Shown here piece after piece: positions 10,563 through 19,459 of a DNA stretch of 64,000 bases. This stretch comes from a virus. The stretch lies in the IMG/VR virus record IMGVR_UViG_3300017991_004311, positions 1-64,000 of that record, one strand, 5' to 3'. The notes beneath the pieces are model-generated. The model searched no databases. It was not told the DNA's origin and saw only the letters and a list, made by a program, of their open reading frames with translations. Position 1 is the stretch's first letter. Every line of letters starts with the position of its first letter. Position numbers and translations under genes: made by a program.

Positions 10563-10966
10563 AGGTTCTGGTAGCGGTTATTGCCGTCCTCGCGGTCCTC
10601 GCGACTCTCGCCTCCTCGGCGCAGGCGTTCTCCCTCCCGGACATCAAGAAAGGGCTGGCGCTCAAGACGATCGGGCGCTACAGCATCACCCCCACCATAG
10701 AAATAGAGCTCTACGAGTTCGACTTCCGCGATCTCAACTACGACTACGACCTCGGCTTCGTCAAGGGTGACTTCGACATCATCGGCGAGACGCTCGGTGA
10801 GTGGACCGTGGACGCGGGGATAGGGCATGATTTGGTGTTGGTCAGCCTCGACCGGACCATCGTTCCGGTCATCGAGCTCCAGGTCGGCGTGTTCGTCGGC
10901 TACGACTTCGACCGCTATGACGGCGGCTTCGAGGCCGGGTTCGGCATCAAGGGGATACTCTGGTGA
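10559..10966 (+). CDS. Small secreted, outer-membrane-barrel-like protein
   Basis: ATG 10559 (135 residues) follows AAGGAGGCCGGAG. A signal peptide ends SSAQA|F. The mature part alternates polar and hydrophobic residues with Gly and aromatics (VGVFVGYDFDRYDGGFEAG), as in small outer-membrane barrels. Similar small proteins occur at 12786 and 56131. A role in envelope modification or superinfection exclusion is speculative. Confidence 0.6.
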   Translation: MKVLVAVIAVLAVLATLASSAQAFSLPDIKKGLALKTIGRYSITPTIEIELYEFDFRDLNYDYDLGFVKGDFDIIGETLGEWTVDAGIGHDLVLVSLDRTIVPVIELQVGVFVGYDFDRYDGGFEAGFGIKGILW

Positions 10967-11424
10967 GCATCTCCGGGAAGAGCGAACCAGTGCCGGTCCC
11001 GGTCCCCGTGCCGTCCTCATTCCGCGACTGGCCGCCCCTGCTCCTCCTCACCGGTCTTGTGTGGGGGGAGGCGCGGGGGGAGCCGTGGATGGCGAAGCTC
11101 GGCGTCGCGTGGGTCGTGCGCAACCGCGTGGAGCGCGGCGGATGGTTCGGGGACGGGTGGGTCGCGATCATGGCCAAACCGTGGCAGTTCAGTTCCCTGC
11201 TGGAGGACGACCCGAACTCCGCGAAGATCAGGAACCCCCTGAAGCACGAGCCGTTCTCCGTGTGGCGCGAATGCCACCTGGCGGCCCTGCACGCGTTCCG
11301 CGGGGAAGGCACCGATCCCACCGCTGGCGCCACCCACTTCATCGATGACAGCATCAACCCGCCCGAATGGACCGGAAAGCTCATCTTTGCCTGCACCATC
11401 GGGCATCTCCTCTTTTACCGATAA
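10963..11424 (+). CDS. Endolysin, SleB-like cell wall hydrolase
   Basis: GTG start at 10963 overlapping the previous stop; 153 residues. A Pro-Val-rich N-terminus precedes a Hydrolase_2 (SleB) domain: WGEARGEP with the likely catalytic Glu, LGVAWVVRNRV, and MAKPWQFSSL. SleB-type enzymes cleave peptidoglycan glycan strands. No cleavable signal peptide is evident, so release would depend on a holin among the small upstream genes. Confidence 0.85.
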   Translation: MSISGKSEPVPVPVPVPSSFRDWPPLLLLTGLVWGEARGEPWMAKLGVAWVVRNRVERGGWFGDGWVAIMAKPWQFSSLLEDDPNSAKIRNPLKHEPFSVWRECHLAALHAFRGEGTDPTAGATHFIDDSINPPEWTGKLIFACTIGHLLFYR

Positions 11425-11791: not shown

Positions 11792-11897
11792 CCTAGTATG
11801 TACCCTGGTAGCCGCCGCCATAGGTGTCTTGCTGGTGATCATAGGGATCGCAACGGGGGCACCGGCTGCGGTTTTATCACATGTACCGACACTTTGA
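11772..11897 (+). CDS. Small membrane peptide
   Basis: 41 residues from ATG 11772 with AAGGAGG upstream: a short polar start, one transmembrane helix (LVAAAIGVLLVIIGIATG) and a short tail. It overlaps the start of the methyltransferase gene. Confidence 0.5.
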   Translation: MTKIHHDLVCTLVAAAIGVLLVIIGIATGAPAAVLSHVPTL

Positions 11898-12789
11898 CCT
11901 GTTCAGCGGTATCGGTGGATTTGCTTTGGCCGCTGGGTGGGCGGGATGGACTACGGTAGGATTCGCGGAGACGAACGACTATGCAAGCAGAGTGCTCAAA
12001 AAACACTGGCCCGATATCTCCAACTACGGCGACGTGCGCGACGTCCCGGCACAAACAGTTGAGCTTGTTACCGGAGGGTTCCCCTGCCAGCCGTTCAGTC
12101 AGGCCGGGAAGCGAAGAGGCGCGAAGGATGACCGTTACCTCTGGTCGGCAATGTTTACAGTTATCAAAAGATGTCGGCCCACTTGGGTGCTTGGTGAAAA
12201 CGTGCCTGGAATCATCAACATGGAACTCGACACAGTGCTTTTTGATTTGGAAGCCGAAGGCTACGCCACAAGGACGCTTGTTATACCGGCTTGTGCCGCG
12301 GACGCCTCGCACCGAAGGAACCGGGTCTGGATTGTGGCCTACCATAACAGCGCAGGACAGCGAGAACTGCGGTGGACCGAGTCAACAGCGCCGCAATACG
12401 AGGTCGCTCAATGCCGTAGTCAGAATATGGCCCACGCCGGTAGCCAACGATGCAACAGGCAGCCAATACACATACAACCAAGGCAACCACAAGAGCATAT
12501 CGCTGAAATTGCCAGGGGCAGTCAGAATGTGGCCCACACCGAAAACGCCCACGGGCGGGGGGCAGACGATACGGAACACACCGGGCGGGGGTATCAGGAA
12601 ACTAGAGGACAGGGTGAGCCAGGTGGAAGGATACAACACTGGCTCCCTGAACCCGACGTGGGTCGAGTGGCTGATGGGGTTTCCCACCGGGTGGACCGAC
12701 TTAGATGTTTAGGTAATGCAGTAGTGCCGCAAGTGGCATATCCGCTATTGCGGTGGATGAGAGAAATATTACAAGAGGAGGCACCATGA
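11881..12789 (+). CDS. DNA cytosine-5 methyltransferase
   Basis: 302 residues. Motif I DLFSGIGGFALAAGWAG, motif IV GGFPCQPFS with the catalytic Cys, motif VI ENV, motif VIII RRNRVWIVA, and C-terminal motif LRCLGNAVVPQVA are all present, so the enzyme looks complete. It adds a methyl group to C5 of cytosine, probably protecting phage DNA from restriction. The stretch between motif VIII and the end is His/Gln-rich low-complexity sequence containing NMAHAG, NVAHTE and VGRVADG. The +1 frame is open over the same DNA and also resembles known proteins (next entry). Confidence 0.8.
   Translation: MYRHFDLFSGIGGFALAAGWAGWTTVGFAETNDYASRVLKKHWPDISNYGDVRDVPAQTVELVTGGFPCQPFSQAGKRRGAKDDRYLWSAMFTVIKRCRPTWVLGENVPGIINMELDTVLFDLEAEGYATRTLVIPACAADASHRRNRVWIVAYHNSAGQRELRWTESTAPQYEVAQCRSQNMAHAGSQRCNRQPIHIQPRQPQEHIAEIARGSQNVAHTENAHGRGADDTEHTGRGYQETRGQGEPGGRIQHWLPEPDVGRVADGVSHRVDRLRCLGNAVVPQVAYPLLRWMREILQEEAP
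11981..12712 (+). other. Open +1 frame over the methyltransferase gene
   Basis: 243 codons are open in the frame one base off the methyltransferase. Its sequence is not random: KTCLESSTWNSTQ, RLVPRTPRTEGTGSGLWPT, repeated WPTP, and LNPTWVEWLMGFPTGWTDL are recurrent in proteins annotated as C5-methyltransferase tails. The VAHT and VGRVADG patterns of the main frame become WPT and WVEWLMG in this frame. It could be an overlapping gene, an ancestral tail separated by frameshift, or a by-product of shared DNA. Confidence 0.35.
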
Positions 12790-14547: not shown

Positions 14548-14678
14548 CCCACACTATCCCGATCCGTCTCCGCCCTAAGGCCCGCCCCCGCCGTGGCAAG
14601 GGGGGTCACTACTACACCCCGGATACCGGGGGGATTGCGCATTTCTTAATAAATACCCGGAGGGGAAGATGTTGCTGA
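14544..14678 (+). pseudogene. RusA-like Holliday junction resolvase fragment
   Basis: 44 residues. IPIRLRPKARPRRGKGGHYY followed by TP is the classic N-terminal strand of RusA-family resolvases, but the frame ends after 44 residues, inside the start of the helicase gene. The acidic catalytic residues of RusA are absent. It is a remnant, or a small protein that kept only this motif. Confidence 0.4.
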
Positions 14679-16045
14679 AGGTGAGGGAGAGATGGACGAA
14701 GGTGTTCGGCATTCCCGGGAACACCGAGGATATCCTCGACAGGGCGTTGGCGCGCCGGGAGCCGAATTACTGGCACAGCTACAAGTACAAGCAGGGTACT
14801 TGGGACGGATGGCGCCATTTCTATTTCAGGAAATGGCACGGGTTCCCGACCGGACTCCTGCCGATGGTGGTCAAGCTCCTGGACTCGCTGAACGCCCGGT
14901 ACGAGATCGCCGACCAGTGCCAGGTCATCCCGAGGGACCAGTGGCATCCGCTCCGCCTGCGCGGGATAGAGCTGCGCGATTTCCAGCGGGATACGGTGCA
15001 TGCGGCACTGGAGCGCAAGCGCGGTATCCTGTTCCACGCCACGAACGCGGGCAAGACCGAGAGCGCATGCGGCATCATCCAAACGCTCCATGCACCCACG
15101 CTCTGGGTCACCCACCGTCGCAGCCTCATGCACCAGACGGCCGCGCGCTTGCTGGAGCGGATACCGGACATCACCGTCTCGCGCTACGGTGACGGTCTCA
15201 AGGAGGATGAGGGGACGGTTGTGGTCGCCGTGGTCAACTCCCTCGTCCGCCACCGTGACCTGAAGGGGTTCCTGAAGCGCTTCCGCGTCCTGGTGGTCGA
15301 CGAATGCCACCACCTGGGCGGGAGCACGAAAACATTTTATAAGGTAGCGATGCAGTGCGACGCCTCCTACCGCTACGGTCTCTCCGGGTCGGCCATCCAA
15401 GGGAAGGCGATCGAGGATATGCGGCTCATCGCCTGCCTCGGCCCCGTGATCTCGGAGGTCACGAACCGCGAGCTCATCGACAGGGGGATATCGGCGGAGC
15501 CCCGCATCGTGGCGTTCGGCGTCACCGAACCGGAGGGGGCGCGGTCGTTGGGCTACGAGGACGCCTACGCCCGCGCCGTCGTGGAGAACAGGACCAGGAA
15601 CTCGCTCGTGGTGAGGCGCATCAGGGAATTGGGGGTGCAGGCGTTGGTGATCGTGCGCCTCATCCGCCACGGCGAGCTCCTGGAGGCGATGCTCCGGGAC
15701 GCCGGGGTCGACGCGCGCTTCGTGAGCGGGGAGACGAGCAGCGCGGACCTGTCGGTCGCCCTGGAGGAGTTCCGCGACGGGGCAATCGACACGCTCGTGA
15801 GCACGAACATCTTCAACGAGGGGATCGACGTGCCCGCGATCCGCCATGTCGCCATCGCCGCCGGGGGCAAGTCCTACGTCGAAATCCTGCAGCGGATCGG
15901 ACGGGGACTGAGGCGCAAGGAGGGGGAGAACGTGCTCCACGTGACCGACTTCCGCGATTTGGCGAACCGGTACCTGAGGGAACACTCGGAGGTGCGCATG
16001 GCCGAGTACGAGCGCCAGGGGTTCACGGTGGAAGACGGTGGTTGA
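14669..16045 (+). CDS. SF2 DNA helicase, UvsW-like
   Basis: 458 residues. Walker A ATNAGKT at ~124-130, DECHH (motif II) at 211-215, GLSGSA (motif III) at ~237, and QRIGRGLRR (motif VI) at ~408. The N-terminal ~100 residues contain an aromatic-rich segment before the helicase core, as in UvsW/RadD-type phage helicases. These enzymes branch-migrate recombination intermediates and unwind R-loops. It fits the T4-like recombination set at 28.7-34.8 kb. Confidence 0.85.
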   Translation: MLLKVRERWTKVFGIPGNTEDILDRALARREPNYWHSYKYKQGTWDGWRHFYFRKWHGFPTGLLPMVVKLLDSLNARYEIADQCQVIPRDQWHPLRLRGIELRDFQRDTVHAALERKRGILFHATNAGKTESACGIIQTLHAPTLWVTHRRSLMHQTAARLLERIPDITVSRYGDGLKEDEGTVVVAVVNSLVRHRDLKGFLKRFRVLVVDECHHLGGSTKTFYKVAMQCDASYRYGLSGSAIQGKAIEDMRLIACLGPVISEVTNRELIDRGISAEPRIVAFGVTEPEGARSLGYEDAYARAVVENRTRNSLVVRRIRELGVQALVIVRLIRHGELLEAMLRDAGVDARFVSGETSSADLSVALEEFRDGAIDTLVSTNIFNEGIDVPAIRHVAIAAGGKSYVEILQRIGRGLRRKEGENVLHVTDFRDLANRYLREHSEVRMAEYERQGFTVEDGG

Positions 16046-16961: not shown

Positions 16962-18278
16962 ATGTCTGACCACTATCCCTTTGACGTACATTTCCAGCGC
17001 ATCCTGATCGCGTTGGTGTTCAGGCGTCGCGGGTTCCTGCGCCAGTTCCGCGAGGTGCTGGCCCCGGCGCGTTTCTCCAAGATCGTGCACGGGGTCATCA
17101 TGGAAGTTACCAATGACCTCCATGACCGTTTCGGGAGCGCGACCCCGGAGATGGTCCTGCAGGAGATACGGCGCCTGGCGGGCTCCCCCTCCCTGCGGAG
17201 CATCGACCCGACGGTCTACGAGCGCGAGGTCAGGCGCATCGAATCCCTCGACTGCGGCGACGAGGCGGACTACACGCGGGAACTCCTGGTGGCGTTCGCC
17301 CGGAGGCAGGCGCTCGCCGCGTTCGTGCAGCGCGCGGCCGACACCGCCGAACAGGGGCCGACCTCTGAGGACTACGATCGCATGGGGCGCGAGTACGACC
17401 GCATCATCCAGATAGGGCACGACATCACGGACACGGGGACGTGGTTCTTCCGGGACGCGAGGGAGTGGCTCCGCCGCCATGAGCGGGTCAGGGAGGGGCG
17501 GGTGCTGACCATGATCCGACGCCTCGACGAGAAGACGCACGGGCTCGGCGCGGGCGAGGTCGGCGTCATCCTCGGGTTCAAGGGGAGGGGGAAGACGGCG
17601 ACGCTGGTGAACCTGTCCGCCGCCGCCATCTTCCAGCGCAAGCGGATCGTCTACTACACCGTGGGGGACCAGGAGGAGACGTACATCAACGCCCGCCTCG
17701 CCGCGCGCGTCTCCGGGTCCCCCGCGAACGAGATCAGCGATCACGAAGGGCAGCTCCTCCGGAAACTGGAGGAAGTGCATTCGATGTTCCGGGGTGATTT
17801 CGTGTGCAAGTTCTTCGTTCCCGGAACCACGGTGCGCCAGCTCGACGCCCACCTGACCACCCTGGAGGGGCTGGGGTACGTGCCCGACATGGTGGTCGTC
17901 GACTACGGGGACCAGCTCGCCCCCGGGAGGAGTCGGGGGAGCGGATGGGAGGACCAGCAGGCGGCCTACAACGAGCTCATCGCCCTGGCGGGGGAGCGTC
18001 GGGTGGCGTTGTGGACCGCCTCGCAGATAGGCCGGAGCCAGGGGGACAAGGCGGTGGTGGGCTTGGAGGATGCGGCATATTCCTTCGCGAAGCTGGCGGG
18101 GGTGCATCTGGTGCTCTCGCTCTCGCAGCTCCCGGAGGAGCGCAGGCGCGACCAGATGCGGATCGTGGTCGCGCACCAGCGCCACGGGCCGGCGGGGGGC
18201 GCGGTCCTGGTGGACTACGACTGGGACCGGATGCTGGTTCAGGCGGCGCGGGAGGGGAACGAGGATGTCACCGGATGA
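16962..18278 (+). CDS. Replicative DNA helicase, DnaB/gp41-like
   Basis: 438 residues. A helical N-terminal domain (~1-180) precedes a RecA-like core with Walker A GFKGRGKT at 205-212, a Walker B-like strand DMVVVDYGDQ at ~310-319, and an SQIGR segment typical of motif H3. DnaB/gp41-type hexamers unwind DNA at the fork and recruit primase. The primase gene follows after copy 2 of the repeat. Confidence 0.85.
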   Translation: MSDHYPFDVHFQRILIALVFRRRGFLRQFREVLAPARFSKIVHGVIMEVTNDLHDRFGSATPEMVLQEIRRLAGSPSLRSIDPTVYEREVRRIESLDCGDEADYTRELLVAFARRQALAAFVQRAADTAEQGPTSEDYDRMGREYDRIIQIGHDITDTGTWFFRDAREWLRRHERVREGRVLTMIRRLDEKTHGLGAGEVGVILGFKGRGKTATLVNLSAAAIFQRKRIVYYTVGDQEETYINARLAARVSGSPANEISDHEGQLLRKLEEVHSMFRGDFVCKFFVPGTTVRQLDAHLTTLEGLGYVPDMVVVDYGDQLAPGRSRGSGWEDQQAAYNELIALAGERRVALWTASQIGRSQGDKAVVGLEDAAYSFAKLAGVHLVLSLSQLPEERRRDQMRIVVAHQRHGPAGGAVLVDYDWDRMLVQAAREGNEDVTG

Positions 18279-18571: not shown

Positions 18572-19459
18572 ATGAACCTGCGCCAGGCGCTTGAGCGTTT
18601 CGGTCCGGTCACGGAGCACGGCGACGAGTTCCTGACCACATGCCCGGAATGCCGGAAGGCACAGCATTTCTATGTCAACCGTAGGAAACTGAAGGGCTAT
18701 TGCCAGCGGTGCGGATACCGCGTCGGCCCCCGTTGGATCGGCAGATTGCTCGGTGGGGATCTGGACGAGACCACCGAGGACCGCATCCGGGAATTGTTGC
18801 GTAACGATCGTGCCGGCACGGACGCGCTCGCCCTCCCGGATGAGACCGGTTACGATTTCGGCACCAGGACCGGTAGGTGTGCTCTGCGCTATTGGATGAA
18901 GCGCGGGTTGAGTACTGGGCAGCTTGAATCCTACCGTGTCGGCTATTGCGCTTCGGGCAGGTACGAGGGGAGGCTCATCATCCCGGTCTACGAGCGCGGC
19001 GAGCTCGTCTATTTCCAGGCGCGCAGTTTCGGCGTGATGTTCCCCCCGTACCTGAACCCGCCGAGGGGGCGGGGAAGGGGCAAGTCGGAGGTCGTGTTCA
19101 ACCTCGACAGCGCGTCGGGGACGGGCACGGCGGTCGTCACCGAGGGCGTGTTCGACGCCATGGCGGTCGGCCCCTCCGGAGTATCGCTTTTCGGCAAGTT
19201 CGCCAGCGGAGCGCAGTTGGGAAAACTGGCGGAGCGCGGCCTCTCCGAGGTCTATGTCATGCTCGATTCGGAGGAAAAGGATCCCGATATTCCCCATCAG
19301 GCACGGGCGCTCGCCCGGCAACTCGCTTCCTACCTTTTGGACGTCACCGTCCGCGTGTGCAGGCTCCCGCACGGCGATCCTGGTTCGTCGTCACGCGAAG
19401 ACATCTCTCGGGCCCTCGCGCGCGCCACCCCCTTGACACTTTGTGATATTGTGCTATAA
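18572..19459 (+). CDS. DNA primase, DnaG/TOPRIM type
   Basis: 295 residues. Zinc ribbon CPEC (24-27) with CQRC (44-47), then a catalytic region with the TOPRIM acidic motif VVTEGVFDAMAV (E191) and MLDSEEKDPD (second acidic motif). Shorter than bacterial DnaG and lacking its C-terminal helicase-binding domain, like small phage primases. The last codons overlap the promoter at 19433. Confidence 0.85.
   Translation: MNLRQALERFGPVTEHGDEFLTTCPECRKAQHFYVNRRKLKGYCQRCGYRVGPRWIGRLLGGDLDETTEDRIRELLRNDRAGTDALALPDETGYDFGTRTGRCALRYWMKRGLSTGQLESYRVGYCASGRYEGRLIIPVYERGELVYFQARSFGVMFPPYLNPPRGRGRGKSEVVFNLDSASGTGTAVVTEGVFDAMAVGPSGVSLFGKFASGAQLGKLAERGLSEVYVMLDSEEKDPDIPHQARALARQLASYLLDVTVRVCRLPHGDPGSSSREDISRALARATPLTLCDIVL

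Follow-up and report, generated by a model that had tools for sequence, protein, structure and literature searches.

Is a methyltransferase gene that is open in two reading frames over most of its length one gene or two? The question is raised by positions 11881-12789 of a stretch of viral DNA of 64,000 nucleotides, hereafter the window, which covers positions 1 to 64,000 of the IMG/VR record IMGVR_UViG_3300017991_004311. We show that both frames are protein-coding and under selection, and that the selection is divided between them by region. Very probably, the locus encodes a two-subunit C5-cytosine DNA methyltransferase, made from two out-of-frame nested genes that we call alpha and beta.

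The features of the locus described here lie on the + strand. The alpha open reading frame (ORF) occupies 11881-12789 (frame 0, 302 aa). The beta ORF is nested within it at 11981-12712 in the +1 frame (243 aa), starts with ATG at 11981 and stops at 12710-12712, and spans 250 codons from stop to stop. A sequence-only reading of the window had reported dual open frames over a cytosine methyltransferase, the +1 frame being open for 243 codons, and both ORFs are indeed there, with the peptides it quoted. The same bases read NVAHTE in frame 0 and MWPTP in the +1 frame at about 12526-12541, and GRVADGV and VEWLMGF, respectively, at about 12661-12681. How often would such an open frame arise by itself? 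In 20,000 permutations of the frame-0 synonymous codons, which preserved the alpha protein, the longest +1 run averaged 93 codons, peaked at 242, and never reached the observed 250. The -1 frame is ordinary, with 54 codons against a null 95% value of 105. The long +1 open frame is not due to chance.

Selection on the two frames was measured in several ways. In a codon alignment of 78 alpha genes, we compared codon identity at sites with the same residue with the expectation from codon use. The ratio of observed to expected identity is close to one in the flanks (1.01-1.06 in windows within residues 1-55, 1.01-1.05 from residue 281), rises to 1.5-2.5 across most of the overlap, and is lower in the poorly alignable recognition region. 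Some alpha codons in the overlap are fixed or nearly so (Leu87 is CTC in 73/73 genes, Leu116 is CTC in 71/71 and Ala137 is GCT in 77/78), whereas the leucines of the flanks use all six codons. The difference rates at frame-0 codon positions 1/2/3, computed from ungapped in-phase blocks of 35 disjoint pairs of relatives, are.080/.040/.363 before the overlap,.149/.081/.211 in the catalytic overlap,.376/.108/.086 in the recognition region,.232/.085/.066 in the region of motif IX and.102/.041/.394 past the beta stop. The pattern thus flips to its mirror image and back, and the sequence evolves by region as alpha, as both, as beta and as alpha again. The stretch constrained in both frames (12079-12357), where alpha motifs IV-VIII lie over the N-terminal part of beta, shows the intermediate position rates and a codon identity of 1.5-2.1 times the expectation. 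Finally, shuffling the synonymous codons of alpha abolishes the similarity in the +1 frame (median z 11), and shuffling those of beta abolishes the similarity of alpha (median z 13).

Alpha remains under selection even opposite the end of beta. Its tail there, VGRVADGVSHRVDRLR (12658-12705), has three arginines, Arg262, Arg270 and Arg273, which stay arginine through first-base changes: codon counts show essentially only AGR and CGR replacing each other. At least at Arg262 and Arg270, the change falls on the third position of a fourfold-degenerate beta codon. Since beta alone would permit any base there, alpha is still selected in this region. We therefore rejected the idea that the alpha tail (RVADGV..RVDRL) is a mere shadow of the beta tail. 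It is also ruled out by locus L049, where a similar tail lies downstream of, and separate from, the IX-like tail.

What does each frame encode? Alpha is a C5-cytosine methyltransferase by Pfam (PF00145, DNA_methylase, E 3e-37, residues 3-175), matches phrog_363 (E 5e-72), and resembles M.HhaI and M.HaeIII both by sequence and by fold among structures of the PDB. In frame 0 it carries motifs I-VIII and X, without motif IX and the recognition region. According to the model and the alignment, motifs I-VIII occupy residues 1-159 (11881-12357), with the catalytic PCQ at 12082-12090; PCQ, ENV and H.R.R are invariant across the alignment of alpha relatives. In an AlphaFold model built with 45 relatives, residues 1-159 are well folded, with a predicted local distance difference test score (pLDDT) mostly >80 and a low loop at 72-80, and the C-terminal part folds with good confidence from about residue 269. 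Motif X, LGNAVVPQVA (12709-12738), has the beta stop inside it and lies where synonymous freedom is normal again; its LGNAVVPQ is conserved, and residues 281-300 are predicted to form a helix (pLDDT mostly >80). Between these parts, residues 160-268 have a pLDDT <50 and appear unstructured. In the model, this gap falls exactly where single-chain C5-methyltransferases carry their small domain, i.e. the recognition region and motif IX. We looked for this domain on the alpha chain and found instead that the region evolves in the +1 frame. Because residues 160-268 are unstructured and their DNA evolves as beta, membership in PF00145 belongs to the pair and not to alpha alone.

Beta matches phrog_1008, a family annotated as DNA methyltransferase (E 2.7e-36), and has homologues in every nested locus that we examined. 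Beta proteins contain several units starting with WPTP or LPTP. In the window, three such putative target-recognition modules (12335-12427, 12428-12529 and 12530-12637, together 12335-12637) were assigned to beta by the codon-position rates, the alpha chain being there an apparently unstructured passenger linker. Next comes a C-terminal tail, LNPTWVEWLMGFPTGWTDL (12647-12703), which, in alignments with single-chain and split relatives, corresponds to the segment that follows their recognition modules and precedes motif X. In Filuzino, Goose, Mundrea, Firecracker, ArV1 and L049 this is just before motif X, the position of motif IX, and from position and pattern we call the tail motif-IX-like. 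The beta profile also matches the single-chain methyltransferase gp68 of Mycobacterium phage Filuzino with E 1.8e-25, whereas residue-shuffled controls gave E 0.25 or worse. In gp68, which also matches phrog_116, phrog_363 and phrog_1008, the LPTP modules and an EWMMGWPxGW tail share a frame with motifs I-VIII and X.

Like units reappear in otherwise different beta proteins, e.g. GNYN.KG.S..SGDGLATAVK in several loci. Unit 2 of the window beta is similar to a unit of phage epsilon15 (WQTPVANDSTGSTHCYSGKN...LKLPGTA), and unit 1 to units of TaylorSipht and ArV1 (GGPSQ..RNT..LN). This suggests that the WPTP/LPTP units are exchangeable target-recognition units arranged in series. In locus L002, at about 386-670, extra WPTP-type units are found in the beta frame upstream of the catalytic PCQ, with alpha also open, and we read this stretch as a possible displaced or duplicated recognition module.

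Might beta instead have a function unrelated to alpha, for example as an anti-restriction factor, a regulator or a homing endonuclease that merely overlaps it? Beta has no Pfam domain of its own, and out-of-frame HNH genes hidden in phage methylase genes have been reported (PMC11855218). Yet, beta has no HNH match in Pfam or PHROGs, and we rejected a hidden HNH endonuclease of the ShiLan type described in that work. Moreover, homology links its modules and tail to the section of a single-chain methyltransferase that holds recognition and motif IX, and to the second genes of split methyltransferases, which carry motif X too, and alpha lacks exactly that recognition and IX domain. We regard an independent function of beta as improbable.

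The start of beta bears on a different alternative, equally improbable in our view, in which programmed frameshifting from alpha to beta yields a single fused protein instead of two. The long overlap, the constant +1 register of beta and the natural single-chain versions (Filuzino) would fit such a fusion. But there is no alpha stop within the overlap, the product would still be without motif X, which remains in frame 0, and in most relatives a strong Shine-Dalgarno sequence precedes an internal ATG at the beta start. An upstream in-frame ATG is present in 120 of 150 distinct loci. Its commonest place, in 56 loci, is 14 codons before the GGxPCQ of alpha, where the Shine-Dalgarno duplex reaches -6 kcal/mol or better in 84% of cases, compared with 11% for positions taken at random; the ATGs found 15 codons, or 13 to 11 codons, before GGxPCQ are similar in strength. 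In most relatives, beta thus has its own internal ribosome-binding site, and these strong sequences before the upstream ATGs fit a separate internal initiation. In the window, the candidate Shine-Dalgarno for beta is a GGAG at 11967-11970, 10 nt before ATG 11981 (anti-Shine-Dalgarno duplex of -6.6 kcal/mol). Another internal start could be the nearly invariant in-frame ATG at 12128-12130 (beta M50, over alpha D83-D84), which is found in 68 of 73 loci, alpha D83 being GAT in 68 cases and GAC in 4. We do not favour it as the main start: codon constraint begins upstream, already at about alpha residue 66, a few relatives have ACG or ACA at this place, and the Shine-Dalgarno sequences point to the ATGs 11-15 codons before GGxPCQ.

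Far less probable still are shadow conservation and gene decay. In the former, only frame 0 would code and the open +1 frame would be a by-product of frame-0 conservation and codon use; in its favour, the best-conserved catalytic motifs lie in the overlap and put some constraint on the +1 frame, and the +1 runs of the null are longish. Against it, synonymous codons of one and the same gene vary freely in the flanks but are frozen inside the overlap, the recognition region changes most at frame-0 first positions, contrary to what frame-0 coding would give, and the +1 similarity exceeds that of synonymous shuffles. In the latter, a single-chain gene would be decaying or frameshifted by assembly, as a few relatives with alpha out of frame with itself might suggest, but nearly two hundred loci, from many phyla, share the arrangement with both frames intact. 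The relatives in question, L104 and L106, lose the frame of alpha near motif IV and keep beta open, which could reflect a pseudogene, a sequencing error or recoding.

How general is the arrangement? The first 109 loci, selected by similarity, came from IMG/VR, phage records and the window's own genome. Both proteins are present in all 109, with beta always +1 relative to alpha, and beta is also present in loci that were retrieved by searching only with alpha. When the beta alignment was used to scan bacterial and archaeal genomes, 390 stretches were confirmed and 80 loci were kept; all 80 are nested in the +1 frame. Their record titles name Bacillota, Bacteroidota, Pseudomonadota, Acidobacteriota, Planctomycetota, Actinomycetota and others. 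Among further phage records, 8 of 9 are nested in +1, the exception being Arthrobacter phage TaylorSipht, where the halves are tandem genes. Naturally, since loci were picked by similarity, these counts do not give the frequency of nesting among all C5-methyltransferases. Phage records matching alpha number 1,327 against 176 for beta (E 0.01), a gap due in part to divergence. Depositors annotated both ORFs in several phages, e.g. Paenibacillus phage Bloom and coliphage K1G, and list one in others. The nested arrangement thus occurs widely among phages and their hosts, and annotations usually show it as a single protein.

Several relatives depart from it. Goose gp80/gp79, Mundrea 78/77, Firecracker gp6/gp5 and ArV1 067a/b are split without being fully nested, and have motif X on the second protein. 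In L049 (2868-4194), alpha ends after motif VIII and the beta frame has an IX-like tail followed by a second, alpha-type tail, WIPEPDIPRVATGIKNRVNRLKCLGNAVVPQ; the beta frame then continues into motif X. Gordonia phage CheeseTouch (1389-2423 of its locus) is mixed, with LPTP modules in the +1 frame and motifs IX and X in the alpha frame. The Filuzino locus (1164-2774) has its recognition modules in frame 0, and a beta-like N-terminal sequence with more LPTP units is open in the +1 frame upstream; it looks like a frame change between the nested and single-chain arrangements. A different change is seen in L065, where alpha carries an in-frame insert (about 130-750) just before TGGFPC. By its pattern (HH...C..CH..WH) the insert is HNH-endonuclease-like, and it is reminiscent of the HNH inserts reported in phage methylases.

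How would the two proteins of the window work? Alpha, with motifs I-VIII and X, would provide the large domain, which binds S-adenosylmethionine and performs catalysis; the middle third of alpha would serve as an unstructured linker. Beta, translated from its own internal ribosome-binding site, would provide the small domain, made of several WPTP-type modules and a motif-IX-like helix. The two most likely join into one active methyltransferase that modifies the phage DNA, its specificity being set by the beta modules, and this methylation presumably counters host restriction. The ownership of each region by one frame or the other, and the homology of beta to that part of a single-chain enzyme which holds the recognition region and motif IX, are direct results of the computation. 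We infer from them that both proteins are made in this virus, bind each other and are each inactive alone, and the target sequence and anti-restriction role are drawn in the same way. Some points weigh against the two-subunit enzyme. The basis is wholly computational. The AlphaFold model of beta is poor (pLDDT 60), a fold search with it gave no match, and a search of the beta tail by sequence against solved structures returned no significant match. The start of beta is also less clear in the window than in relatives, as ATG 11981 has a moderate Shine-Dalgarno sequence and TTG 12059 and ATG 12128 are alternatives; the ATG of alpha itself has a weak one (-2.4).

These results also clarify what the databases contain. 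PHROG 363 and PHROG 1008 are separate families, both annotated as DNA methyltransferase, and correspond here to alpha and beta, i.e. to two frames of one DNA stretch; their members here are probably two halves of one enzyme. The sequence-only reading had suggested that the two types of tail found in databases are frameshift relatives, or else that two proteins are read from one gene. The first suggestion is apt as a description, but there is no annotation error because both frames are selected. The second is strongly supported by the codon-level selection in both frames and by the internal ribosome-binding site; the analysis of synonymous rates across homologues that had been proposed as a check revealed selection in both frames, not in one only. 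That reading was mistaken in holding that frame 0 keeps all the methyltransferase motifs, since the +1 frame holds the IX-like segment and the target-recognition region, and it did not recognise the pair as the catalytic and recognition subunits of one enzyme.

The principle of a nested two-subunit methyltransferase is already known. Natural C5-methyltransferases of two polypeptides include M.AquI, whose small subunit carries motifs IX-X, and M.EcoHK31I, with I-VIII and X on the large subunit and IX on the small one (PMC3404938). Engineered C5-methyltransferases that are severed between motif VIII and the recognition domain reassemble, with the C-terminal helix going with the large domain (PMC5944983), and the division of the window pair is that of these split enzymes. 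M.AquI (CYCGRG) resembles the window in its natural split after motif VIII and in making one enzyme from two subunits (PMC3404938), but differs in that motif X, which it has on the small subunit, stays on alpha in the window. Splits like that of M.AquI occur among the relatives, in L049 and several actinophages (TaylorSipht gp40/41, Goose gp80/79, Mundrea 78/77, Firecracker gp6/5 and ArV1 067a/b). M.EcoHK31I (YGGCCR) distributes its motifs like the window pair, where IX was placed by position and pattern. It differs in that its recognition domain is predicted to be on the large subunit (PMC3404938), whereas the codon-position rates and the alpha model put that of the window on the small one. 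It also belongs to a restriction-modification system, whereas the window has no restriction gene among the neighbours examined. Its small subunit is said to be encoded out of frame inside the gene of the large one, and this is the arrangement we find in the window and its relatives. The window pair is best read as being of the M.EcoHK31I kind by motif distribution, and not as a proven homologue, because the recognition domain on the large subunit of M.EcoHK31I was itself a prediction. The single-chain M.HhaI and M.HaeIII share the fold of the large domain and the motif order (I-VIII, recognition, IX, X), but they, like Filuzino gp68 with its beta-type modules in frame with the catalytic part, are one polypeptide in one frame. 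Our literature search found no paper on such a nested arrangement in phages. What is new here is its breadth, the evidence for selection in two frames and the recognition domain on beta.

In the 98,936-base virus record, the locus lies downstream of a cell-wall hydrolase (10963-11424) and upstream of a helicase (14669-16045), a DnaB-like helicase (16962-18278) and a primase (18572-19459). It is probably an orphan phage methyltransferase, since a scan of ten neighbours revealed no restriction endonuclease. Elsewhere in the window, positions 48973-49100 (128 nt) match a tRNA (42 bits, E 1.4e-5), with a long insert that either interrupts the anticodon arm or takes its place. No tRNA is reported there by ARAGORN, and the match might be an intron-bearing or remodelled tRNA.

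It seems rather probable, although less so than the two-subunit enzyme of the window itself, that a large share of the 'orphan Dcm' genes of phages and prophages are obligate heterodimers, with a complete modular recognition domain in the +1 frame over the catalytic gene. One frame would then preserve catalysis while specificity evolves in the other, and the passenger stretch of alpha would be kept open, though functionally empty, to reach motif X. Long nested genes on the same strand that are conserved across phyla are rare, and here both frames are shown to be selected, divided by region. If the two-subunit enzyme is confirmed, in many cases a methyltransferase annotated as one protein would lack activity or specificity if cloned by itself, two PHROG families would be the two halves of one enzyme, and the WPTP proteins would gain a function. 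The locus and its relatives may also serve as a system for studying the sharing of one sequence between two frames, in which natural forms of the enzyme (single-chain, split and nested) can be compared.
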